Virus record (IMG/VR): IMGVR_UViG_3300030118_003663
Coordinates: 1-35,971 of that record
Reading direction: 5' to 3' (one strand)
Length of the DNA: 35,971 nucleotides
From: a virus
The notes beneath the pieces are model-generated. The model worked only from the letters and a program-made list of their open reading frames with translations. It did no database searches and was not told where the DNA came from. Positions 3,021 through 22,356 of this stretch are shown one piece after another. The first letter of the stretch is position 1, and the number at the start of each line of letters is the position of its first letter. Both the position numbers and the translations under genes were made by a program.

Positions 3021-3141
3021 GATATTTCTTCCAATTCTTTCTTCTGTTTTTGTTTTTAGGTCTTGATTGTCTTGACAGACCTATTGATGTTCTCTTTGGT
3101 TTTGGTTGCTTTCGTAGAACAGTTTCAAGTTTCTTTGCCAT
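3004..3141 (-). CDS. Tiny basic protein, conserved in T4-like marine phages
   Basis: The gene encodes 45 residues, beginning MAKKLETVLRKQPKPKRTSI and ending KKYRGQGR. The protein is strongly positively charged, with runs of K and R and a final RGQGR. I recall very similar short basic proteins in T4-like cyanophages, without a known function. Nucleic-acid or ribosome binding would be natural for such a peptide but is inference. Its ATG shares one base with the TAA stop of the membrane protein gene upstream (TAATG), so it should be translationally coupled to that gene. Confidence 0.7.
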   Translation of the reverse strand: MAKKLETVLRKQPKPKRTSIGLSRQSRPKNKNRRKNWKKYRGQGR

Positions 3142-3815
3142 TAACACCTTTCTGACAATTTACATAGTAATACTTTAACACCTTCCCATGTAAAAGTCAA
3201 CTCATTTGATATTGTTTCAGTTATTGAAAAAATATTTATATCAAAGTGACCCAATGCAAACACACTCATTGCACTTACAAGTCCTATCAGAAATGATGTA
3301 TAACTTAATTTAAGATACTTAAATTTATTGGTTGCCAAAACTCTACCCAAACCATATATGTTGCCAACTACGGCATCATACGTCCTTGAGTCTTTTTCAA
3401 GTCTCTGTGCATACTCACTCTTAAACTCATCAAGTGGTATGTGTGCAAAATGTCCAAAAAATAAAGGATTATAAAAAGGGGATTTCCTGTCAATGTCTCC
3501 ATCATGTGTCTTAGGATACCCTGTCTTTGGTAAAATAACAATGATTGCAAATATCAATGCTATCATAGAAAAGACACCAAGAAAAGTCAATGGCCATTTC
3601 AAAATCTCACTGTCCATGTTTGACAATGTGACAGAAAATACGATAGAGGAAACTGTAATCATGATATTTGCCTTTGTGTCAGCCATCAAAGTCAAATTCA
3701 TGATGTTGGTCTGATTTAGTCTAAGGATGTTATCAATTGCAGTTGATGAAGGAACGTCATCAAAGTGATTTTCTTTAGTTGTAAAATGTTCTTCGTTCCA
3801 AGATTCTTCTGACAT
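3141..3815 (-). CDS. PycTM-like (Pycsar effector type) membrane protein
   Basis: The 224-residue protein has an amphipathic helix with NIMNLTLMADTKANIMITV (A45-D46-x-K48-A-N50) running into membrane segment 1 (about 51-66). Segment 2 follows at about 74-95. A soluble part contains YNPLFFGHFA and DAVVGNIYGLGRVLATNKFKYL, and segment 3 is at about 172-190. The L-x-AD-x-KAN signature, the N-P-L-F-F-G motif and the IY-x-LG-x-VL-x-x-K segment before the last helix match my knowledge of the PycTM/DUF5706 family, the transmembrane effectors of Pycsar anti-phage defence. In defence systems these proteins respond to cyclic UMP or CMP and damage the membrane. No cyclase gene is next to this one, so the phage copy may be a decoy, an exclusion factor or a lysis aid. 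Its neighbours are periplasmic and membrane proteins. Confidence 0.6.
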   Translation of the reverse strand: MSEESWNEEHFTTKENHFDDVPSSTAIDNILRLNQTNIMNLTLMADTKANIMITVSSIVFSVTLSNMDSEILKWPLTFLGVFSMIALIFAIIVILPKTGYPKTHDGDIDRKSPFYNPLFFGHFAHIPLDEFKSEYAQRLEKDSRTYDAVVGNIYGLGRVLATNKFKYLKLSYTSFLIGLVSAMSVFALGHFDINIFSITETISNELTFTWEGVKVLLCKLSERC

Positions 3816-3818
3816 TCC

Positions 3819-5231
3819 TTACCTCAACGGCGGTGCATATAATAAACCTCCCTCCGTGTACAATTTATTATATCCTCTCTTTAAGTTGAGAGGTGTTTCT
3901 GTTCCAAGATATTTTTCGTAAATTTCTTCGTAATTACCTATCTGTTTAACAATTTGATATGCCCAGTCAGCATTCAATCCTAATTTTGCACCAAGATGTG
4001 GAAACTTATCGCCATCTCTCTCACCCATGAATCTCTGTATCTTTGGGTCTTTATTTTCTTTAAACGTGTCAATATTTTGAGATGTAATACCTAATTCTTC
4101 TGCAATAAAAAATACATATACCGACCAACGTGTTATATCAGTCCACAACTGATCACCATATCTTACGGCAGGTCCAAGAGGTTCTTTTGAAATCACCTCT
4201 GGTAGAATCATGTGTTTATCTGGTTCTGGATACTTTGTTCTATCTCCTGCTAATGCTGACCTATCAATACCATACATATCACAATTACCATCCAAATATA
4301 ACTCAACTATATCTTCGTCTGGATAGACACCAACAGGGGTATACTCCATTCCCCATAATTCAAAGAAATCTTTGATGTTTTGTTCTGCAGTTGTATCAAT
4401 ACTATAACAAACTGTGGCTCTGGAAAGGTCTTTGGCACTTTTTGCGCCAAGAGTCCTTCTTACCATAAAACCTTGACCATCATAAAATGTTGTTGGTAAA
4501 AATTCTATGCCATGAATAACATCTCTTGTATATGTCCATGTGGTTGTTGCAGACAATACATCAATAGAACCATCTTTTAATCTTTCAAATCTGGTTCTAC
4601 CATTAATGGTCTTAAATTTTATTTTATCTTTGTCTCCAAATAATGCAATGGCAAATGATTTACAGATGTCTGCATCAAACCCTTCCCAAATGTGATACAT
4701 ATCACCTTCAGGTGAAGTTATTCTTTGGCCTGTTCTTTCACTAAATCCCCATTGATTGTCATACACACCACAAATTACATATCCTCGTTCTTTTATCTTA
4801 TTTACAGTAGAACCATAAATTGGATTGTATTCATCACCACCAGAATATTCATCTTCAGATTCTTCTTGCATCTGAATATGTTGACTCTCTACTTCTTTGA
4901 GTCTTATAACTTCTGCTTGTAATGCATCATATTCTTTTTTAGGTACTACCTCAATATCTGGTCCAACGATACCAGAGAATATTGCTTCTCTCTGTTGTGC
5001 CAGTTCATCAATTTCTGCTTGTAAAGACAATCTATTACCTATATCAGTCTTAGGATCATCTCTCCTTTCAACCAACATATTGATTTCATCTTGTAATGTA
5101 CGAATACTTGCTTCACGAACCTCATCAATGACCTTCAAATTTCCATTACTATCTGAATATACTTTCTGTCCAAGTGATTCCGTAACTAAAAATGATGAAA
5201 CAAAAACTAATATTACGATTAGATTTTTCAT
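3819..5231 (-). CDS. Periplasmic amino-acid-binding protein (AapJ-type, SBP family 3) with coiled-coil N-terminal region
   Basis: The protein is 470 residues long. Residues 1-21 form a Sec signal peptide (MKNLIVILVFVSSFLV, then small residues). Residues about 35-125 are rich in E, Q, R and L heptad-like repeats and probably form a coiled coil. From about residue 140 the sequence follows family 3 solute-binding proteins of the AapJ general L-amino-acid type: GYVICGVYDN, WEGFDADICKSFAIALFGD, RFERLKDGSIDVLSATTTWT, FYDGQGFMVRR. Such proteins deliver amino acids to an ABC importer in the host inner membrane, but no permease or ATPase gene is present here. The extra coiled coil is not usual for AapJ. 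Its ATG overlaps the stop of the cytochrome gene (ATGA). Helping host amino-acid uptake, or serving as an envelope decoy, are both possible. Confidence 0.8.
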   Translation of the reverse strand: MKNLIVILVFVSSFLVTESLGQKVYSDSNGNLKVIDEVREASIRTLQDEINMLVERRDDPKTDIGNRLSLQAEIDELAQQREAIFSGIVGPDIEVVPKKEYDALQAEVIRLKEVESQHIQMQEESEDEYSGGDEYNPIYGSTVNKIKERGYVICGVYDNQWGFSERTGQRITSPEGDMYHIWEGFDADICKSFAIALFGDKDKIKFKTINGRTRFERLKDGSIDVLSATTTWTYTRDVIHGIEFLPTTFYDGQGFMVRRTLGAKSAKDLSRATVCYSIDTTAEQNIKDFFELWGMEYTPVGVYPDEDIVELYLDGNCDMYGIDRSALAGDRTKYPEPDKHMILPEVISKEPLGPAVRYGDQLWTDITRWSVYVFFIAEELGITSQNIDTFKENKDPKIQRFMGERDGDKFPHLGAKLGLNADWAYQIVKQIGNYEEIYEKYLGTETPLNLKRGYNKLYTEGGLLYAPPLR

Positions 5232-5695
5232 TTTAATGTACGATAAATTTCCATTAATTCAGCTTCAGGCATTTCCTGTGCCATTGTGAAATATCTTTGG
5301 TGACCGACCTTCATAAATCCCTTGAGGTCTGCAAAACTAGGATACTTTGCATGTAATCCAGAAATAAGATAATCGGGATCTAAATGACATTCTGCACAAG
5401 CATTACCCTTTGCAAATACTCTTGTACCAAGTTGATACCTCTCACTCTGTACCAATACAGAATTTAAGTCTTTCTCAACCCACCTTATCTTTTCATCCAT
5501 CTCTGGTATTACCATAAAAATCATGTAGGCCAAAAGACCCACTATGACAAAAATAAATGTCTTAACACTTTTGATTGTGGTAAGAGTCTCTTCTTCTATT
5601 TGTTTGACAGGTTCAAATCCAATATGTTCCTCACCATTTGTTGTTACAGTAGCCTTTATTGACCCTTCCTGAGTTGGCTTCTTTTGTTGTGCCAT
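5228..5695 (-). CDS. Membrane-anchored c-type cytochrome
   Basis: The 155-residue protein has about 44 hydrophilic residues, then one membrane helix (about 46-63, FIFVIVGLLAYMIFMVI), and then a domain that would lie in the periplasm. That domain carries one haem c attachment motif, C100-A-E-C103-H104. Near the C-terminus, YFTMAQEMPEAELMEIYRTL resembles the last helix of class I cytochromes c, and M138 or M142 could be the distal haem ligand. Maturation would depend on the host Ccm machinery. The gene is followed by the solute-binding protein with an ATGA overlap. A cytochrome gene in a phage is unusual. Altering host respiratory electron flow during infection is the natural guess, but nothing in the sequence shows the partner. 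Confidence 0.75.
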   Translation of the reverse strand: MAQQKKPTQEGSIKATVTTNGEEHIGFEPVKQIEEETLTTIKSVKTFIFVIVGLLAYMIFMVIPEMDEKIRWVEKDLNSVLVQSERYQLGTRVFAKGNACAECHLDPDYLISGLHAKYPSFADLKGFMKVGHQRYFTMAQEMPEAELMEIYRTLK

Positions 5696-5703
5696 TGTAA
5701 CTC

Positions 5704-6051
5704 CTATTTCGCCTTAGATGCTGTTTTCAGTCTTGATTGTAATTGTTGTGCAAACATTTTGAGTATGATCGGAATACTCACGTTTGAAGTAAGTCCAAAC
5801 AAAAATCCTACTGGATATTTAAATGATGCATATGGTTGCACTTGTTGTACGTTATCAAATACAAGAACGATTAAAATATATCCTGTTACTGACATTCCCA
5901 TATTGATAAACAAATCAAGACATATCAACCACCAGTTGCCTTGATACTTGTCTTTATTATCATGCCTGTAATTAAATAAAAATACAAAGAATGATGAAAA
6001 TAATATTATAGAAAACATAATTAAGTTATCTACACTGAACATTTCTGTCAT
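5704..6051 (-). CDS. Small membrane protein with three predicted helices
   Basis: The protein has 115 residues and hydrophobic segments at about 9-27, 41-66 and 81-100. A short basic loop (NYRHDNKDK) lies between the first two, and the tail QLQSRLKTASKAK is basic. The positive charges suggest that the loop and tail lie in the cytoplasm. I do not recognise the family. The layout could suit a holin or a partner of the neighbouring membrane-bound cytochrome. It overlaps the nucleotidase gene upstream by ATGA and ends 8 nt before the cytochrome gene. Confidence 0.7.
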   Translation of the reverse strand: MTEMFSVDNLIMFSIILFSSFFVFLFNYRHDNKDKYQGNWWLICLDLFINMGMSVTGYILIVLVFDNVQQVQPYASFKYPVGFLFGLTSNVSIPIILKMFAQQLQSRLKTASKAK

Positions 6052-6560
6052 GGAAACCCTACCTTTTTTAAGTCATTTATGGTTGAGGACGCATCAGTAT
6101 GAAGGATTCCAATTCCACCTGCAGCTTCCCATTCTCTAATATTCCCCTCATGGTCATCTATTAAAACATTTGGTCTTTTGTCTCTCCCATCTTTTGCAAA
6201 CTTTTTCTTGTCTGCACGTTTAACTACTCGCATTCTACTTCTGGGTAGTCTAAAATTTTTCTTCATCCACCTTATTTTATCTTCTGGTGCTCTCTTTGCA
6301 ATTGGTCCTCTTGACTCTCTTGGAGCAGCCGTCAACATGATTGGATCAAATTGTTTTATGTAACCCCAAAGGACATCTGCATCTGGCATTTTGTCAAGTT
6401 GTGCAAACGTGTCCTCTGGAATATCTTCCCAAAATCTGTCCTTGAATTTTGTACCCAGAATATTCCTTGTGAATTTGAGGAAATCTGCAACGACACCATC
6501 CATGTCACAATATATTTGTGGGTTATCAAACTCTACTAAATGTTGACTAAAACTTTTCAT
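6048..6560 (-). CDS. HAD-family 5'-nucleotidase-like hydrolase with MKSF leader
   Basis: The 170-residue protein has HAD motif I in C18-D19-M-D21-G-V-V, motif II at T77 in MLTAAPR, and the acidic motif IV in VLIDDHEGN (D135, D136), with lysines near 118-120. The size and the DMDGVVADF motif resemble phage and bacterial 5'(3')-deoxyribonucleotidases, which remove phosphate from (d)NMPs. The ATG at 6560 is preferred over an earlier in-frame one at 6650, because it overlaps the stop of the upstream gene as ATGA and gives the leader MKSFSQHLVE. That leader ends in an L-x-E site, so head packaging is possible. The substrate is inferred. Confidence 0.75.
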   Translation of the reverse strand: MKSFSQHLVEFDNPQIYCDMDGVVADFLKFTRNILGTKFKDRFWEDIPEDTFAQLDKMPDADVLWGYIKQFDPIMLTAAPRESRGPIAKRAPEDKIRWMKKNFRLPRSRMRVVKRADKKKFAKDGRDKRPNVLIDDHEGNIREWEAAGGIGILHTDASSTINDLKKVGFP

Positions 6561-6967
6561 ACGTCCTTCATCCAACTTATGATTGCAGCTGCAATGGCAC
6601 CAATGGCACCGGCAACTAGTGAGGTCATTCCCATCAAACGAGACTTCCATTGCTCCACTTGACGTACCCTCTCTTCTAATTTATGTATTTGTGAAGTTAC
6701 ACGGCGCTCTGAGTGTCCAATCTCATCATGGACATTGCCGATACGAGAATGCAGAAGTTTGAGTTCGGAGCGGATGTCATCATCCACCTTCCGATGCTCT
6801 TCTTGGCGGGAATTTAAAGATTTGATTTCTACAGTCAATTCTACAATTCGGTCTGCGGTAGAATCCAGTTTAGAAAGAAGAGCATCTATTTGTCTACCTC
6901 TGACTTCAACCTCGTTTTGTAACAGGCCTACTTGGAGCTTGACATCCTGTAGCTCTTCTGTTGCCAT
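6557..6967 (-). CDS. Coiled-coil protein with C-terminal membrane anchor
   Basis: The 136-residue protein is nearly all heptad-patterned helix from about residue 5 to 105 (for example RIVELTVEIKSLNSRQEEH). One membrane segment follows at about 112-131 (MTSLVAGAIGAIAAAIISWM), and the last residues are charged. The architecture resembles XhlA-type haemolysin proteins, which accompany phage lysis cassettes, though only the layout supports this. It overlaps the nucleotidase gene by ATGA and follows a small acidic protein with 3 nt between them. Confidence 0.65.
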   Translation of the reverse strand: MATEELQDVKLQVGLLQNEVEVRGRQIDALLSKLDSTADRIVELTVEIKSLNSRQEEHRKVDDDIRSELKLLHSRIGNVHDEIGHSERRVTSQIHKLEERVRQVEQWKSRLMGMTSLVAGAIGAIAAAIISWMKDV

Positions 6968-15476: not shown

Positions 15477-15627
15477 CGGTTTTCTCCTGTTCAGTTTCTT
15501 TTACTTCAGTTTGAGGTGGTTCTTCCTCTTTTTTACCAGACATAATATCTAATGCAGCCTTACTAACATTTTTAAGGTCACTAAATGCTGATTTACCAAA
15601 ATATTTTGGATCTGTAGATGGTGACAT
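15469..15627 (-). CDS. Small acidic-tailed protein, unknown
   Basis: The 52-residue protein begins MSPSTDPKYFGKSAFSDLKN and ends in a charged tail (KKEEEPPQTEVKETEQEKTDG). The ATG shares a base with the TGA of the adenylyltransferase-like gene (TGATG), and its own 3' end overlaps the start of the modular protein by 8 nt. These overlaps on both sides make it convincing despite its size. A ribosome site for the next gene (CAGGAG) lies inside its last codons. The function is unknown. The small acidic prohead core proteins of T4 are a loose comparison only. Confidence 0.65.
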   Translation of the reverse strand: MSPSTDPKYFGKSAFSDLKNVSKAALDIMSGKKEEEPPQTEVKETEQEKTDG

Positions 15628-16895
15628 CACTTCCTTTCTGGTTTATACTCTGATACCAGTGCCGTAAGAGTTGGCGCTAGCATTGAAAACTTTTGTTGTA
15701 TCGTGAGGACATCAATACCTTGTTCCATTGCCCTCTGAATAATCTTATCTGCTTCTCTTTTAGACAAATTAAGTTTATCCATTATATATTTTACAACTTT
15801 ATTCATGGATTCTTTAACTGTTTCGTCTTGGCCTGGTGTATCTTTTGTGTAAATCACTAAGGATGGATAATCACCACGTTCAATAGTTTCTTGAATCTCA
15901 CTAATATATTTATAAATAAATGAATTGTCAAAGACATCTGAATTATTGACATTGGCCATAAAACGAGTGTATTTGTTGACAAGTTGTTCCATGAAGAACA
16001 AATCTTTTTCGTTTATCTTTTTGACTTTTTGCAATTTATTTCTTATGTCAAGAAACTCATCAAGGACCATTACAGCTTCTTTAAGATAAAATTCATCTTT
16101 TTTACTAAGACCACTAAGAGAGTTGACCATCTCATCAAGCATATTAAATGCATGTGTTGAGTGATGTAGATGAGATGTAGTGAAAGAACCAACTGTAATC
16201 TGGTGTGTCTTGTCAAGAGTAATCTGTTCTACTACGGATTCAGTCTCAAAGTCAATCTCTTTCCATTTCTTGCCTTCTTTGACCACATCTAACTTCATAC
16301 CCTTACGAATATCATTAAACATTTTCTTTGTGTCAGCATCAGAAAGAGATGGTGGAGTACCCATACGAAATGACTTGAAATCTCCATCCACAGCAGCTGC
16401 CCTCATCTTTGATGCAGACATTCCCTCTACACCCTCGGCATCTGGATCACGTTCACCTGCACTTACGACATCAATATTGTCAAAGTCATAGAATCCATGT
16501 TTCTTTTCTTCACCATTGTAGGTCTGTAATAATTTTTTAAAGTCTTGAACTCTATCACTACCAACGACCATGACAAGATTGGTATATTTTTTCTTGTTGT
16601 ATAATTCTACGGCAACGTCAAGAGCAGTTTTGGCATTACTTGAAATGATGTTCCTTGAAAACTTAGAGAACATCTTCTTCATGTATTTAATTTTAGTATT
16701 TCTATCAAGAGGATTCTTTTTAGGGTCTTGGGATTGACTTGGATAGACAAAGAAATCTCCACCCCTCTGTCTTGCCACAGATTGAACTGCAATAATCAAC
16801 TTCTCGTGGCCAACTGTAGGTGGATTGAATCTTCCAAAGGTGAACACTGCTGTATCACCTTTTCTTTCTGTCATAAATCTTTGGTAGGTTTTCAT
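15627..16895 (-). CDS. Nucleotidyltransferase like NMN adenylyltransferase, with capsid-targeting-like leader
   Basis: The 422-residue protein has a HIGH-superfamily nucleotidyltransferase domain. Residues 18-30 read FTFGRFNPPTVGH (the H/T-x-x-H nucleotide site), VVGSDRVQDF is near 110, and GMSASKMR at 158-165 matches the ISST-x-x-R-type motif. NMN and nicotinate mononucleotide adenylyltransferases, which make NAD from NMN and ATP, share this layout, as do cytidylyltransferases. The C-terminal 200 residues, with HHSTHAFNMLDEM and a LSKREADKIIQRAMEQGI end, form an unknown helical domain. The N-terminus MKTYQRFMTE matches the T4 IPIII capsid-targeting sequence as I remember it (MKTYQEFIAE) in 7 of 10 positions. 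NAD rescue on entry is an attractive inference. Confidence 0.75.
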   Translation of the reverse strand: MKTYQRFMTERKGDTAVFTFGRFNPPTVGHEKLIIAVQSVARQRGGDFFVYPSQSQDPKKNPLDRNTKIKYMKKMFSKFSRNIISSNAKTALDVAVELYNKKKYTNLVMVVGSDRVQDFKKLLQTYNGEEKKHGFYDFDNIDVVSAGERDPDAEGVEGMSASKMRAAAVDGDFKSFRMGTPPSLSDADTKKMFNDIRKGMKLDVVKEGKKWKEIDFETESVVEQITLDKTHQITVGSFTTSHLHHSTHAFNMLDEMVNSLSGLSKKDEFYLKEAVMVLDEFLDIRNKLQKVKKINEKDLFFMEQLVNKYTRFMANVNNSDVFDNSFIYKYISEIQETIERGDYPSLVIYTKDTPGQDETVKESMNKVVKYIMDKLNLSKREADKIIQRAMEQGIDVLTIQQKFSMLAPTLTALVSEYKPERK

Positions 16896-17392: not shown

Positions 17393-17709
17393 GCTGAACC
17401 TCCGTATTTTTTTGATTTGACTTTTTTACCTTTATTTTCTCCACCTGTTCTGGCAATCTTACCTTTGGCCTTACAGTGTGCTTTACATGAGAAACCTTTT
17501 GGTGCATTACAGTTACAATGACTCATATCCTTTTCTTCAAATGCCATAACCCTTGTACCAGTTGAGTTGAGTTTTACTTTTTTCAGATTAAAATGTTTTC
17601 TGATATACTCTGCAGCATCTTTTACTGAGATGAGGTGACTCATACCCTTGATAAAAGAATTTATCTGCTGAGTAGTTGGTTTTCCATAAAACTCATGAAA
17701 CTGGATCAT
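17389..17709 (-). CDS. Small cysteine-containing basic protein
   Basis: The protein is 106 residues from the ATG at 17709, chosen because it overlaps the upstream stop as ATGA. The ORF extends five codons further upstream without such support. The N-terminal half is helical (QQINSFIKGMSHLI, SVKDAAEYIRKHF). The second half holds SHCNCNAPKGFSCKAHCKAK, with four cysteines and a histidine that could bind a metal ion, then a K/G-rich tail. The start MIQFHEF resembles the leader family but has no clear L-x-E site. A nucleic-acid-binding role is only suggested by charge. Confidence 0.65.
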   Translation of the reverse strand: MIQFHEFYGKPTTQQINSFIKGMSHLISVKDAAEYIRKHFNLKKVKLNSTGTRVMAFEEKDMSHCNCNAPKGFSCKAHCKAKGKIARTGGENKGKKVKSKKYGGSA

Positions 17710-18542
17710 TTTCTTTTCTTCCACAAATCTGCATCTGCTTTACGTGCACCACCACCTGTGATGAAACTATTGACTCTGGCAAATGCCCATTGTTGAGGTG
17801 TAGTGCCTGGTCTGTGACCTGTTCTCCAAGCTGCCATACCCCTGTCATATACCTTCTTCAATATACCATAAGAGATACCTGACTTCTCGGCCTTCTTTAC
17901 AAGTCCTTTGATTTTCTCATTCAAGTTTTCCTCTTTCATAGGTTTCATTCCAAGTTTCTTACGATAGACATTCACTTGTTTGATTAACTCTTTCTGATCT
18001 GGTGAATTCGGAATGGCTTTCATTGCCTTGGTTGTGAGTTTCATCATCATAGCTTTATCACTTTTATTCTCACCAAACATCTTTTTATACTTCAATGTAT
18101 GTTTAGATGGTTTGGTCTTGGCACTTTTGTCGCCTGGTGCTGGTTTGTATGCCGCTGGGTTGTCATCGTCCATCTTTGCACCTTTTTCAAAATGTCTTGC
18201 TCTTGCCTGTTTGGTGGACTTTGACTTTACACCCTTATAATATTTTGCAGGTTGTGTACCCTCTCTGTCTTCAACATCGTCATCCTGTGCAACTTTTCTC
18301 TGGTGACTTCCCTCGTCAAATTTTAAATCATAGTTGTATGCAACCACACCAGAAGACATCTTTCTGAGATACACATGGATAGTCGTACTACCTGTGTGGT
18401 GAGGAAAAGTAAAGGCAGGTTTGGTCTTTTTCATTTTATAGTCATCGGTCGCATTGACAACCTGTTTTGCCAGTCTTCTCTTCTTTATTTCGTCAGCAAC
18501 ATATTGGTCTGTCCTGTCGTCATACTCTTTAAAGTTTATCAT
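17706..18542 (-). CDS. Two-domain phage protein (DUF5824-like N-terminal part)
   Basis: The 278-residue basic protein begins MINFKEYDDRTDQYVADEIK. Its first domain ends with AKYYKGVKSKSTKQARARHF, which I associate with DUF5824 of large phages. A charged linker leads to a helical middle (NSPDQKELIKQVNVYRKKLG) containing the L-N-E-K run. The C-terminal domain (KAEKSGISYGILKKVYDRGM, AAWRTGHRPG, QWAFARVNSFITGGGARKAD) also recurs in many phage and prophage proteins. The function of both is unknown to me. It lies inside the late cluster of leader-bearing genes and overlaps both neighbours by ATGA, so it may be part of the same packaged set. Confidence 0.7.
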   Translation of the reverse strand: MINFKEYDDRTDQYVADEIKKRRLAKQVVNATDDYKMKKTKPAFTFPHHTGSTTIHVYLRKMSSGVVAYNYDLKFDEGSHQRKVAQDDDVEDREGTQPAKYYKGVKSKSTKQARARHFEKGAKMDDDNPAAYKPAPGDKSAKTKPSKHTLKYKKMFGENKSDKAMMMKLTTKAMKAIPNSPDQKELIKQVNVYRKKLGMKPMKEENLNEKIKGLVKKAEKSGISYGILKKVYDRGMAAWRTGHRPGTTPQQWAFARVNSFITGGGARKADADLWKKRK

Positions 18543-18802
18543 TTTTCCTCTATCTGTAGTATAAGTTTAGAATTTCCTTTTATGAGGCGATGATAAGAAT
18601 ACTTAGGTATCTCAATCACATCTCCCTCTTCTATTTCAACTGGCATTTGGTTATCAAACTGAAACTGCCACCCCTCACCTTGCAATACTGTAATAACTCT
18701 ATCTCTTTTATCTCTGTGCCAAACCATTTCCTCTTCGGCCACATCTTCATCAAAGGTTCTCTCAAACCATTCATTCACTATATCATCTGTGAAAGGAAAC
18801 AT
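18539..18802 (-). CDS. Cupin-fold small protein
   Basis: The 87-residue protein matches a single cupin barrel. VWHRDKRDRVITVLQGEGWQ resembles cupin motif 1 (histidine, acidic residue, GxG-like turn), and EEGDVIEIPKYSYHRLIKG resembles motif 2 (P-x-x-x-x-H). Such proteins bind a metal ion or small ligand. The start follows the upstream stop closely, and the gene ends in an ATGA overlap with the DUF5824-like gene. No leader is present. The ligand and role cannot be inferred. Confidence 0.7.
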   Translation of the reverse strand: MFPFTDDIVNEWFERTFDEDVAEEEMVWHRDKRDRVITVLQGEGWQFQFDNQMPVEIEEGDVIEIPKYSYHRLIKGNSKLILQIEEK

Positions 18803-19347
18803 TACCAGAAACCATTTGGATTGTCAACAGAAAGACCAAGTTCCTTTGCATATCTTGGAAGTCTACAAGCCCAATAAGATGGCTTGGTTTTATCATTCCT
18901 TGTATCACACTTATGTCTGGCTGCAAAACTCCTTCTGGCTTCAGGATCATTTATTTTTACTTTCAATCCAGTAGTATCACCCCAAGTAACTTTCTTTATG
19001 TTTTGAGTCTTTGGATCTCTAACATAGACATAGTATTTTTTGGGGCCACCTCTCTTTGGTTTATTCAATTCAACATGATCATCTTCTAACAATGGTAAGT
19101 CCAGAGGCACTTCTTCTCCTTCATATAAGGCAAACTCACCAATATCTGTATTCAGAAACATCACTTCTTCTGCTTGTGGCATGTATTCACCTTCTTCATA
19201 CAGTTCTCTAACCTTCTTAAACAAATTGAAGAAGTTTTCAGAATACATACGGAAAACACTCTGAGTAAGTGGTATTTCGTTATCTACATGATACTTGACA
19301 GCTTCATCAAGTACAATCTCATTGTCGTGTTCTATGAATGTTTTCAT
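18802..19347 (-). CDS. Phage protein with conserved C-terminal ARH...C...YW.C domain
   Basis: The 181-residue protein starts MKTFIEHDNEIVLDEAVKYH. The opening is leader-like, with an L-x-E site at residues 13-15. The middle is acidic. The C-terminal 80 residues (KKYYVYVRDPKTQNIKKVTW, then ARRSFAARHKCDTRNDKTKP and SYWACRLPRY) form a compact basic domain that I have seen in many T4-like marine phage proteins. The spaced H, C, C and C residues could bind a metal. No function is known to me. It sits between the ligase-like gene and the cupin, with short overlaps on both sides. Confidence 0.7.
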   Translation of the reverse strand: MKTFIEHDNEIVLDEAVKYHVDNEIPLTQSVFRMYSENFFNLFKKVRELYEEGEYMPQAEEVMFLNTDIGEFALYEGEEVPLDLPLLEDDHVELNKPKRGGPKKYYVYVRDPKTQNIKKVTWGDTTGLKVKINDPEARRSFAARHKCDTRNDKTKPSYWACRLPRYAKELGLSVDNPNGFW

Positions 19348-20558
19348 TTAGTCCAATTCTTTGCCGCATTAAAGTTTGCTCTTGAGAACTCAAGTCTATC
19401 AACCAACTTTACTGCCTTACCTAATTTGTCTATAGCAACAAAACCCTCTGGTTGTGTAACCTTATATCCATTTTCTGTACGGATGAAAAGGTCCATAAGT
19501 CCTTTTGATTTTTCTAACTTACGAATCACCATCTCTTTGGCATCCACCAGAAGATTTTGCATGTCAAATATTTTTACCAACTGTGAAGAATTTGAACGAA
19601 ACTCTTTCATAAGTCTGTCCATATTCAATTGCTTAATTTTCTTGTTTTGTGGTCTTTTTACTTTGTCAACTTCTTTTTTTAACTTATCATAAACATATTC
19701 AATTAGACCTTTTGTGTGCATTCTGGTGTTTGTTATTTTTTGCCCAGTTCTGACTTTTGTATTGTTATAGGTCTTTATCATTATGTTAATATCGTCATTC
19801 TGAGAAATCATATTTAAGAATTCAGAATTTAGAGTATGAAATGTTTTTCCTGCTTGAGACAATACCTTGGTAATGGCAGTGGTTTCAGTCTTATTGAAAT
19901 TAATACTACCAGATGTGTCTCTATACTCTGCATCTGAATACCATACATCAGAAGTTTTTGCCAAACCTCTGAGGTTGACGGAGAATGACGCAGACATATC
20001 CTCCATCGTTTTTCCGCTATAAGTTGTGTGAAAAACGATCCCCATTTTGGAAGACAATATCCGCTGTGCACTCTCCATCGGAACCGCATATACAATCGTG
20101 TTCGGTTGGAAAGTCACATATTGTTTTCCATCTATTGTTTTATTTTCTAAGTCTTCTTGAGTGAACATCATGTCACCCTGAAGTACATCTTTAATACCTA
20201 ACTTGGACAGTTCAGTGAGTGCTACCTTGAGTTTTTGGTTAAGACCGCTTGATGGATGGTTCCTATCAATGTCATCATGAGAATAGTTGATCTTCGCGTT
20301 CTTGTTGAACACGCCTTTAGTGCCCACAAAGAACTGGCCATTCTCAGGGTTAATACCCGCGAAGATGGCTGGGGCGCCATCCCACTTTACTGTCACGTTG
20401 ACACTGGACTTTGACGATCCGGCCAACATATCTCGTAGGGACTGTAAATAGTTGATAGCAGATCGAGTCCCTACTACACCATTATTTAGAACTTCATCTT
20501 CCAGATGTTCTAAATGTAAGTTTTTTTCTTCTGTTAGGAATCCTGCAAAACTATGCAC
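19344..20558 (-). CDS. Ligase-superfamily nucleotidyltransferase (DNA/RNA ligase fold) with capsid-targeting-like leader
   Basis: The 404-residue protein carries the signature motifs of covalent nucleotidyltransferases. Motif I is K58-W-D-G61-A-P with lysine 58 as the expected AMP acceptor. FFVGTKGVF follows at 76-84, a motif III-like DVLQGDMMFT at 124-133, motif IV E371-G-F-V, and motif V KAVKLVD at 381-387. These enzymes seal nicks in DNA or RNA, or cap RNA. The sequence resembles the DUF6267 group of marine phages, as I recall it. RNA rather than DNA as substrate is inference. The N-terminus MHSFAGFLTE ends in an L-x-E site, so the enzyme may be packaged in the head. It overlaps the next gene in the cluster by 4 nt. 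Confidence 0.75.
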   Translation of the reverse strand: MHSFAGFLTEEKNLHLEHLEDEVLNNGVVGTRSAINYLQSLRDMLAGSSKSSVNVTVKWDGAPAIFAGINPENGQFFVGTKGVFNKNAKINYSHDDIDRNHPSSGLNQKLKVALTELSKLGIKDVLQGDMMFTQEDLENKTIDGKQYVTFQPNTIVYAVPMESAQRILSSKMGIVFHTTYSGKTMEDMSASFSVNLRGLAKTSDVWYSDAEYRDTSGSINFNKTETTAITKVLSQAGKTFHTLNSEFLNMISQNDDINIMIKTYNNTKVRTGQKITNTRMHTKGLIEYVYDKLKKEVDKVKRPQNKKIKQLNMDRLMKEFRSNSSQLVKIFDMQNLLVDAKEMVIRKLEKSKGLMDLFIRTENGYKVTQPEGFVAIDKLGKAVKLVDRLEFSRANFNAAKNWTK

Positions 20559-22356
20559 CGTATATCCTTTGAAATTCAGAGTAATCTATAATTTTATATC
20601 CTTCAAAAACATACGATAACTGACCACCAGCTTTATTAGTTCCCATTCTGTTCAAACTATAATGAAGACTACCATCTTCATCCATACCCATGCAGAAATG
20701 GCTATACATAGTATAGTACCTACCACCTTGAGAACTAACCTGAACTCCTATTAATGGAATATTATCAGCACTTATTGAATCTATTTTATCTTCTATAAAT
20801 TTACTACCACTACCTAAATATTCATAGGGTTTACCTTTATCAGAAGCTCCAAACACTTTAAAAACTGGCAAATCTGTTGATCCAAAAAACATTTCTTTCT
20901 GTAATTCCACTACCTCTTTTGCAATAGATTTAGCATTTGAAATTGTCCTACCAGCAAACATACTATTAAGAGATGTTAAAGTTATCCAATTTGTAAATAA
21001 TTTTATTCTATCATCAATATTTTCTTTACCAGTAACATTAAGGCCAATATTACCTGCAAATTTTATATGACCATATTTTGTTGCTGTAGATTGAATTTTC
21101 TTTACCTCTGTATCTATCACTCTTGATATTTTTTTCAACTCAACAGGAGTCATTTCTTTAATTGTGGGAACTACACTTGCTTCTGTCAAAAATTCTTCAG
21201 ACAATGGTTTTCTAATTCCGGCTTTCTTAAATAATGTTTGTAAATCTCTTACTGGACTTTTGTTCATTCGTCTAAGTAAACTATCTTTTAAACTTGACCC
21301 AAACCCCATCAACTTAGAAACTAATTTATTAAATACATTTTTGATACCTTTGAAAATTTTTACCCCAACTCCTGCAACATTTCCTAACATATCTTTAAAC
21401 CAACCCTCTGCTAGGGCAACGTTCAACATATCCTCAAAAGAATCTAATCCATATCTATCTTTTACAGCCTTAAATATTTTTCCTAGTTGTGCACCACCCA
21501 TCTCTTTTTTCAAAGAAACTAGTACAAACCGAATATTATTTGGAAGTTCACAAATACCAGTTTTTTCATCATAATCAACTTTTTGAGTTTTTAATGCAGT
21601 GATTACTGTATCAGCAGGTTTATTACAAATTACAGCATCTGGTGTTGGTAATTTTGATCCTGTCTTTTGAATTTGATCATTTTCTCTTTCAGCTTGATAA
21701 TAATCATCTATTCTACCATGAATAATATATTTAAATTCTGATGATAATTTTTCTTTTTTAAAAATTGACATACCAGCTGCCAATCTCAAAGTTTCAGCCA
21801 AATCAGCAATATTTCTTTTATTTGGATCACTGAGTATTGAAAGAATGCCATCTACACCCTTTTGATCATAATCTTGACCATTAGTAAGATGTTTTTCAAT
21901 TTTCTTGACAATTTTTACGTCTTCTTCTGTAGGCCTATTTGAATCTCCTAATTTTTCATATTCAATATCTGCATCCATAAACAGCCCAAGACATGCAGCA
22001 GCTTCTAATGTATTAACATTCCATGTTATGCCTTGACCACTAGAACTTTTGTTAAATAAAGGACTTATACTTGCTTCTTTACCATCTAACTTATAAACTT
22101 TTCCATTAAAATCCAAAAATACCACAACCCCTCCACCACCTATTGTGACTAGAGTAGCATCATTGGTTGGTTGAACTTTTACTACTTTATCACCACCATT
22201 TACCGGCATTCCTGCTTTGTTTAACTTATCAACATTTTTACCAGCACTGGAAACAGTTGCCTCAGTCCCTGCAGGATACTTAGGATCATAGATACTCATT
22301 TCTTTGAGTATATTTTTAAAATCTTCTTTTAATATTTTTTGTTTAAACGATAACAT
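20551..22356 (-). CDS. Large putative internal head protein with leader and internal cleavage-like site
   Basis: The 601-residue protein opens MLSFKQKILKEDFKNILKEM, with L-K-E at residues 9-11 and again at 17-19. A Gly-rich beta segment (VTIGGGGVVVFLDFNGKVYK) lies near residue 70. From about 315 to 365 there is a run of amphipathic, basic helix (MLGNVAGVGVKIFKGIKNVF and LVSKLMGFGSSLKDSLLRRM) that could touch membranes. A second leader-like site, SEEFLTEASVV, has L-T-E at 390-392 and could split the protein into two mature parts. A late-type promoter and a ribosome site (GGAG) stand just upstream, making it the first gene of the packaged-protein cluster. No known enzyme motif is visible. Confidence 0.65.
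   Translation of the reverse strand: MLSFKQKILKEDFKNILKEMSIYDPKYPAGTEATVSSAGKNVDKLNKAGMPVNGGDKVVKVQPTNDATLVTIGGGGVVVFLDFNGKVYKLDGKEASISPLFNKSSSGQGITWNVNTLEAAACLGLFMDADIEYEKLGDSNRPTEEDVKIVKKIEKHLTNGQDYDQKGVDGILSILSDPNKRNIADLAETLRLAAGMSIFKKEKLSSEFKYIIHGRIDDYYQAERENDQIQKTGSKLPTPDAVICNKPADTVITALKTQKVDYDEKTGICELPNNIRFVLVSLKKEMGGAQLGKIFKAVKDRYGLDSFEDMLNVALAEGWFKDMLGNVAGVGVKIFKGIKNVFNKLVSKLMGFGSSLKDSLLRRMNKSPVRDLQTLFKKAGIRKPLSEEFLTEASVVPTIKEMTPVELKKISRVIDTEVKKIQSTATKYGHIKFAGNIGLNVTGKENIDDRIKLFTNWITLTSLNSMFAGRTISNAKSIAKEVVELQKEMFFGSTDLPVFKVFGASDKGKPYEYLGSGSKFIEDKIDSISADNIPLIGVQVSSQGGRYYTMYSHFCMGMDEDGSLHYSLNRMGTNKAGGQLSYVFEGYKIIDYSEFQRIYGA

Follow-up and report, generated by a model that had tools for sequence, protein, structure and literature searches.

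We report that a gene for an AapJ-type solute-binding protein in an uncultured T4-like phage is, judging by the order and inheritance of its neighbors in related viral contigs, not a lone host gene but the third gene of a cassette that also encodes a membrane-anchored c-type haem protein and a small membrane protein with three TM segments (3TM). The DNA analyzed, called the window hereafter, is a stretch of 35,971 nucleotides from the IMG/VR virus record IMGVR_UViG_3300030118_003663. The 3TM, haem and binding-protein genes form a tightly linked, co-inherited unit; in an uncultured T4-like clade it lies mostly between gp16 and gp17, two packaging genes. For its function we prefer a phage-specific envelope complex over a PstS-like loader, a sensor or a virion part, and we consider the chances about even that the cassette encodes such a dedicated complex, which would support the infected cell with the binding protein as its ligand-capturing subunit.

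The window encodes an intact AapJ-type binding protein

Positions 3819-5231 of the window (minus strand) form one unbroken ORF encoding an AapJ-type solute-binding protein of 470 aa with an N-terminal helical extension. By inspection of the translation, residues 1-21 (5169..5231, minus strand) resemble a signal peptide, with K, a hydrophobic stretch and small residues ahead of Q22 and without a lipobox, and residues 2-19 are helical in the model. The SBP_bac_3 profile is matched at 7.6e-09 with 35.9 bits, above the Pfam cut-off of 26.4. The best solved relative found with phmmer is 4z9n (E 9.3e-80), a periplasmic amino-acid-binding protein of Brucella whose entry title names bound glutathione, and this alignment defines residues 139-470 as the solute-binding domain (3822..4817, minus strand). 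An AlphaFold2 model was built from an input alignment of 28 phage sequences including that of the window (mean pLDDT 76), and Foldseek returned the 4z9n fold as its top match (1.4e-30), with 40-41% identity in that alignment. The AapJ-like domain and signal peptide proposed in the sequence-only reading of this ORF are thus both borne out, the latter by inspection.

The dN/dS ratio of the binding protein against its nearest relative is 0.037, and that of the N-terminal extension by itself is 0.042. Over the whole-gene pairs computed the ratio ranges from 0.037 to 0.24 for the binding protein and from 0.017 to 0.20 for the haem protein. These low values indicate that the binding-protein frame is under purifying selection, and low ratios were obtained for all core genes wherever a value could be calculated.

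We searched for the transporter that a protein of this type would be expected to serve. The ABC permease profile BPD_transp_1 had no match in the 37-kb record of the window (G000), the ABC_tran profile gave a weak match of 15.3 bits, under its cut-off, and neither an Aap permease nor its ATPase is encoded alongside the binding protein in that record. Likewise, no permease above the cut-off was present in 13 of 14 viral records, all of which are fragments. The earlier statement that transporter partners are absent therefore holds for ABC partners, but it overlooked three conserved envelope genes that flank the ORF.

The binding-protein gene is linked to haem and 3TM genes

The order of the cassette is 3TM gene, haem gene, binding-protein gene and then, usually, a gene for a PycTM-domain protein. 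In the window these neighbors encode a small 3-TM inner-membrane protein of 115 aa (5704..6051, minus strand), a TM-anchored monohaem c-type protein of 155 aa (5228..5695, minus strand) and, as a loosely associated fourth gene, a PycTM-domain membrane protein of 224 aa (3141..3815, minus strand). In the window, the haem gene and the binding-protein gene that follows it share 4 nt, and an overlap was found in all 95 junctions compared (4 nt in 89, 1 nt in 6).

To quantify the linkage, viral contigs were scanned separately with the haem, binding and 3TM proteins as bait. Counts refer to 115 viral loci distinct in DNA, after merging loci whose haem genes (or next complete core genes) are identical and leaving out the window, whose own copy is locus L001. 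Where more than 400 nt preceded the haem gene, a 3TM gene was always present (96/96 loci), and where more than 150 nt followed it, a binding-protein gene was present in 95 out of 97 loci. Conversely, the haem gene was found upstream of the binding-protein gene in 93/93 loci and downstream of the 3TM gene in 95/95. One of the two haem loci without a binding protein is L133, in which the haem gene is split between two frames and the contig ends soon after; the other is L106, which like its near twin L105 carries the 3TM and haem genes followed by an IscU gene, with no binding protein within 1.3-2.2 kb. The binding protein has been lost or was never gained in the L105/L106 lineage, which indicates that it is not indispensable.

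The PycTM gene is less strictly associated. Among 78 distinct loci whose sequence continues for more than 700 nt beyond the binding-protein gene, it occurs in 69 and is directly adjacent in 59, while in L155 gp17 comes straight after the binding-protein gene. Pairwise protein distances are correlated among the three core genes (r 0.67-0.83) and, at lower values, with PycTM (0.53-0.61). Together with the linkage counts, this indicates that the three genes form the core and that PycTM is a frequent companion.

The membrane partners and a possible sensing role

The haem protein, a member of conserved family A2/A7, has one TM stretch, and by inspection its CxxCH motif lies on the exported side of the membrane anchor. 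This motif (CAECH, residues 100-104, 5384..5398, minus strand) is present in 90 out of 90 distinct homologues, as is H132 (90/90). The match to the SoxA-TsdA_cyt-c profile (8.1e-05, 23 bits) is below the Pfam cut-off of 27, SoxA 1h31 was hit with E 0.23, and the model of the protein, made without haem, is of low confidence (pLDDT 63, pTM 0.27) and has no fold match, so we did not adopt the assignment of the protein to SoxA/TsdA. The two share CxxCH followed by a short similar stretch, and they differ in that the cassette protein has only one haem domain, a short one, attached to a TM helix.

The 3TM protein (family A3/A8) belongs to no known family and is the most conserved member of the cassette, 27 family members being 54-85% identical to the copy in the window. 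We examined the possibility that it is the remnant of an ABC permease, since 8 of these 27 members have weak BPD_transp_1 matches (best 0.0019, sub-cut-off where shown). Profile-profile comparison with AapQ and AapM alignments (five cell loci each) gave probabilities of 0.2% and 3.2%, and the candidate was rejected. In length and inspected topology the 3TM protein resembles class I holins, which are usually far less conserved, and no holin family was matched by the 27 members in Pfam or PHROGs. In addition, Phage_lysozyme (PF00959) was above the cut-off in 0/13 viral records, and a SleB-type hydrolase (PF07486) was found in 3/14, lying near the cassette (about 5 kb) only in G005. As these searches show no general linkage to lysozyme or SleB genes and no holin family match, a lysis module was also rejected.

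The PycTM protein matches PF18967 at 2.9e-20 with 73.1 bits, far above the cut-off of 27.2, and PycTM was found in 9 of the 14 records. We take this domain to be the membrane effector of Pycsar defence. The phage protein differs from the Pycsar TM effector in being phage-encoded and located in an envelope gene cluster. As an observation in its own right, a PycTM protein of a T4-like phage (window 3141-3815) might be a membrane effector, a decoy or an anti-defence protein.

These partners raise the possibility that the cassette is a sensor or gate, in which the binding protein would report an extracellular amino acid, or redox state by way of the haem protein, to the 3TM and PycTM proteins, and these would act on the membrane to set lysis timing or exclude a superinfecting phage. 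The presumed effector function of PycTM, the holin-like dimensions of 3TM and the late packaging-operon position all fit such a role, which would give a lytic phage a switch that reads nutrients or redox state. However, the unmatched holin families, the high conservation of 3TM and the scarcity of lysozyme and SleB genes near the cassette do not, and PycTM is missing near 9 of the 78 loci, is less well co-inherited and is bypassed in L155. Taken together, we find a sensor or gate distinctly unlikely. In a more far-reaching reading, the cassette would be an amino-acid receptor that works autonomously in the host envelope and is coupled to redox. The haem and 3TM proteins would read the ligand state of the binding protein, and a PycTM-type membrane effector would tune membrane energization, lysis timing or exclusion to the amino acids outside the cell; we regard this as unlikely.

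The N-terminal extension is a helical elaboration found in part of the family

In the AlphaFold2 model the extension (residues 37-124, 4860..5123, minus strand) consists of three helices, at residues 37-57, 64-86 and 98-124, that are interrupted at 58-63 and 87-97. Block means of pLDDT over ten residues range from 83 to 91 between residues 41 and 80 and are lower at 87-97. Because of these breaks, the extension is better called a helical hairpin plus one helix than a 90-residue coiled coil. A heptad-shuffle test on the three helices, which is crude and weak, was not significant (p about 0.6). What stands of the coiled coil of about 90 residues proposed from the sequence is therefore the existence of a helical N-terminal extension, and not its coiled-coil nature.

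Out of 91 complete distinct phage homologues besides that of the window, 18 have at least 430 aa, 10 have 380-429 aa and 63 are shorter than 380 aa. Most homologues thus lack the extension, which indicates that it is an elaboration in part of the family and cannot be the key to a general function. Four N-terminal types were seen among the phage binding proteins. The hairpin type of the window occurs at 6 out of the 84 loci in which each of the three core genes is complete and corresponds to one change on the binding-core tree and on the 3TM tree and two on the haem tree. The locus L048, in which 3TM is 83-89% identical to the hairpin group but the haem protein and binding core only 56-60%, suggested that hairpin and 3TM co-vary. 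This was rejected, since the change counts on the three trees give no case for contact. A second N-terminal kind ('RNRLDI ... GDTFVIP', about residues 30-90) replaces the hairpin in the binding proteins of L008, L039, L146, L102 and L018 and is scattered over the tree with 5 changes. We considered a LysM-like reading of it (L008, L039 and L146) and dropped it, as no Pfam match was obtained, nor was there one for this region in the four of these five proteins that were scanned.

The idea that the extension ties the binding protein to another envelope component receives indirect support from the translational coupling of its gene to that of the TM haem protein and from its co-inheritance with the 3-TM protein.

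The cassette mostly lies in an interval known for insertions in cyanomyoviruses

In many of the loci that are long enough, neck genes, gp15, gp16, the cassette and gp17 are found in this order, often with further genes before gp17. To sample the site independently of the cassette we used gp15 as bait and kept 80 loci of 593, of which 50 extended at least 1.5 kb beyond gp15 and 30 were too short. Out of the 50 loci judged, 15 carry the cassette and 35 do not. Among these 35, gp16 and gp17 were both found in 30, often directly adjacent, and gp17 was not found in 5. Relatives with the cassette carry it at the same place, and on a gp15 tree of 68 rows (27 with the cassette, 41 without) 2 changes account for its presence and absence. 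In the lineage of the window, the cassette instead adjoins a deoxyribonucleotidase-like gene upstream (6048..6650, minus strand; phrog_2643 3.6e-23), a neighbor shared with L105/L106 and others.

The late-promoter motif NATAAATA was found at most 120 nt upstream of the 3TM gene in 13 out of 105 distinct loci and of the PycTM gene in 12 out of 76, for an expectation of 2.8%, although AT-rich spacers may add to these counts. The same motif precedes 0/103 haem genes and 0/96 binding-protein genes. Moreover, gp16 and 3TM overlap by 8 nt in 42 out of 77 loci (not deduplicated). Motif counts and overlap together make it likely that the cassette is expressed late and co-transcribed.

The gp16-gp17 site falls inside the g15-g18 interval. 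In cyanomyoviruses this interval is, according to a review, a hypervariable region with 4 to 14 inserted genes, host-adaptation genes among them (PMC2984593). The same text calls the insert position unique to cyanophages, and our data show that an inserted gene set in this interval is not confined to one isolated phage group. The cassette resembles these insertions in using the same structural-module interval, and it differs from the 4 to 14 variable genes in being a fixed set of three core genes, with PycTM in most loci, in another clade.

Its position beside packaging genes and its old phage lineage could also mean that the binding domain has been re-used as a virion or assembly protein with a structural or adhesion role. 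We consider this very improbable, given that signal-peptide-like starts recur throughout the phage binding-protein family (by inspection), that the ligand residues are kept (see below), that the partners are membrane and haem proteins and that, according to PMC2984593, the site is a known hot spot for non-structural inserts in cyanomyoviruses.

The cassette appears to be an old phage property

The 37-kb record carries T4-type replication genes, including a DnaB-like helicase and a DNA polymerase about 50% identical to cyanophage polymerases. A tblastn search of 50,697 deposited phage records with the binding protein returned 7 records, all below 30% identity, and the three neighbor genes had no match in the same set. 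At the sensitivity used, the cassette therefore seems to be absent from these records, which suggests that culture-based phage biology has not met it. In IMG/VR viral contigs, by contrast with the deposited genomes, the protein itself recovered 14 relatives, and the first alignment recovered 193, of which 80 were kept.

We then scanned bacterial and archaeal genome contigs with the 28 phage proteins, which led to alphaproteobacterial and other AapJ-type proteins. The best 80 of 591 cell hits are at most 48% identical to the phage proteins, and no cassette-type relative of the haem, 3TM or PycTM proteins was found in the flanks of these 80 loci. In six cell loci inspected, aapQMP-sized genes lie downstream. 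A tree of the 28 phage rows and these best 80 of 591 cell rows separates the two groups by a long branch with an SH-aLRT of 100, its root not being fixed. The phage proteins are thus not placed within the cellular AapJ tree sampled, and the depth of their clade and the identity of at most 48% do not fit a recent acquisition from a host lineage. That the phage copies form one deep clade beside the 80 cellular AapJ proteins suggests that the cassette is an old phage property. An old phage lineage of structural proteins had been named beforehand as the finding that would count against an uptake role; the tree supports the old lineage, and nothing makes the proteins virion-structural.

The distribution also answers the concern that a bacterial gene was assembled into a viral contig, which might be raised because the record is a 37-kb metagenomic fragment. 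The same arrangement recurs in distinct viral loci (115 examined) beside T4-type genes, and none of the best 80 of 591 cell loci has the three neighbors. Furthermore, the haem family did not turn up in 385 genomes from the same class as a Pelagibacteraceae MAG (0/385), and neither the haem nor the 3TM family did in 398 genomes from the same phylum as a gammaproteobacterial MAG (0/398 each), whereas the haem model matches 14 out of 14 viral records. Contamination or chance is refuted for practical purposes.

The ligand site is kept with a uniform shift

To evaluate the binding site we compared 90 distinct full-length phage sequences with 80 cell sequences (the best 80 of 591), using Peb1A (2v25), an aspartate/glutamate receptor, for alignment of the positions. 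R214, T231, R236, T281 and D323, which by this alignment we take to be ligand-contacting positions, are kept in at least 95% of both sets. The roles of such Arg, Thr and Asp residues in binding the alpha-amino and carboxylate groups are known from Peb1A and HisJ. The loss of ligand-binding residues, which the sequence-only reading had proposed as a refutation, is thus not observed for the head group. In contrast, R228, T282 and E283, all invariant in the 80 cell sequences, are replaced by Ala in 88, 83 and 77 of the 90 phage proteins, respectively, and T321 is Gly in 89 of 90. From knowledge of the family, these four residues probably line the side-chain pocket. A uniform shift rather than decay suggests that the phage proteins keep binding with an altered specificity.

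These results bear most directly on the possibility that the protein is a PstS-like auxiliary metabolic gene product, that is a free periplasmic protein that loads the host AapQMP while the membrane genes serve other ends. The full AapJ-type domain, the conserved head-group residues and the lack of a permease above the cut-off in 13 of 14 viral records (fragments) are all in agreement with this, and the related phage contig G008 carries a complete ABC importer and two other binding proteins, which indicates that the clade does invest in uptake. There is also a precedent in T4-like cyanophages, in which a possible nutrient gene, that of the binding protein PstS, is present by itself (PMC10976474, PMC2984593), so that the earlier remark that uptake genes are rarely carried as a binding protein alone overlooked a known case. 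Cyanophage PstS was taken from hosts, apparently twice, and is patchy (PMC10976474), while the cassette binding proteins belong to a fixed gene set and form a single deep clade of phage sequences. Against a free loader stand this separation from the 80 cellular AapJ proteins (best 80 of 591), the strict coupling to the haem and 3-TM genes, the replacement of the cell-invariant R228, T282 and E283 in most of the 90 phage copies and the N-terminal extensions, which, helical or other and in a minority of proteins, seem ill suited to free diffusion. We consider a PstS-like loader unlikely. The proposal that the protein mainly feeds the host Aap permease is accordingly not supported, given the deep clade and the coupling to non-transporter genes.

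A model for the cassette and its relation to known systems

In the dedicated envelope complex that we prefer, the cassette would be expressed late in infection, and the binding protein would be exported, mature in the periplasm and bind an amino acid or a similar small alpha-amino ligand. The haem protein and/or the 3-TM protein would hold it at the inner membrane, and in the lineage of the window the helical extension may make or strengthen this tether. The haem protein would receive haem from the host c-haem machinery and might pass electrons, this electron route being a guess. Most likely, the net effect would be that amino-acid capture and membrane energetics of the infected cell continue during assembly, with the fate of the ligand also a guess. 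A supporting role of this kind is ascribed to PstS and electron-transport genes in cyanophages. Our reading of the cassette as support for the cell draws on the insertion region, on the PstS precedent and on exported-looking or metabolic neighbors in relatives, the exported-looking ones being, by inspection, a class-3 lipase, a nuclease and lipoproteins, and the metabolic ones, in one contig, a whole ABC importer with salvage genes. Points against the complex are the L105/L106 lineage without the binding protein, the poor model of the haem protein with no fold match, and the late-promoter motif ahead of 3TM in only 13 out of 105 loci. If our reading is correct, the cassette would be a heterotroph-phage counterpart of the cyanophage photosystem and PstS genes, and the regular set of neighbors suggests that phages with the cassette build a dedicated envelope device and do not merely borrow a host uptake gene.

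Among known systems, the closest are AapJ/BztA-type proteins (SBP_bac_3; 4z9n), with which the phage protein shares the full-length domain at 40-41% identity and the head-group residues. It differs from them by its separate clade, the lack of aapQMP beside it, the uniform changes at R228, T282, E283 and T321, the extra N-terminal helices and the coupling to a haem protein. XoxJ/MoxJ and XoxG/MoxG are a binding-protein-like subunit and the cytochrome c of methanol dehydrogenase, and they resemble the cassette in that a solute-binding-protein fold works with a cytochrome c. In contrast to that system, no dehydrogenase gene was noticed beside the cassette, the best match of the binding protein is AapJ-type and the cytochrome is unlike in size. 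While a phage-borne binding protein is already known (PstS), a fixed cassette of c-type haem, 3-TM and AapJ-type proteins is, as far as we searched, undescribed; no description of such a cassette or receptor machine was found in the literature covered, which included few subscription papers and no bioRxiv preprints. A single odd gene thereby becomes a conserved, testable unit, for which concrete residues and genes are listed here.

Other genes near the cassette and in the window

Several other genes were observed around the cassette in related loci. A class-3 lipase with a lipoprotein-like start (L008:10212-10970, L009:9586-10359 and L015:10429-11205) lies between the binding-protein and PycTM genes in 24 out of 137 loci examined. 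Beside 2-TM and PycTM genes, L313:1-753 encodes a DNA/RNA non-specific endonuclease (2.6e-29) whose start resembles a signal peptide, apparently a phage nuclease sent to the periplasm. An IscU-like gene is found near the cassette in L105 (2511-2897), L106 (3678-4064) and 15 other loci, and an IscA/HesB-like gene in several, so that iron-sulphur assembly genes, named here by inspection, occur as phage accessories.

The cassette-bearing contig IMGVR_UViG_3300020436_002755, which comprises L313 and also L015, encodes an ABC importer at 18050-21901 (minus strand, L313:13051-16902), with a permease (1.4e-26), an ATPase (1.6e-32), an NMT1-type binding protein (5.7e-16) and a PnrA-like nucleoside-type binding protein (2e-46). 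Downstream of it are genes for an arylsulfotransferase, a 2OG dioxygenase, a PRPP synthetase, an OMP decarboxylase and a phosphoribosyltransferase, and the set looks like phage-encoded nucleobase/nucleoside import and salvage.

In the window itself, positions 381-629 encode an 82-aa 2-TM protein, holin-like by size, with 83-84% identity to copies in L009 and L015, where its gene lies close after PycTM. Positions 1389-2603 encode a tRNA nucleotidyltransferase (phrog_2244 4.4e-59), and no tRNA gene was found in the window. Finally, the ORFs at 15627-16895 and 17706-18542 match opposite ends of the cytidyltransferase family phrog_3041, as if a single gene had been split with other ORFs between its parts.
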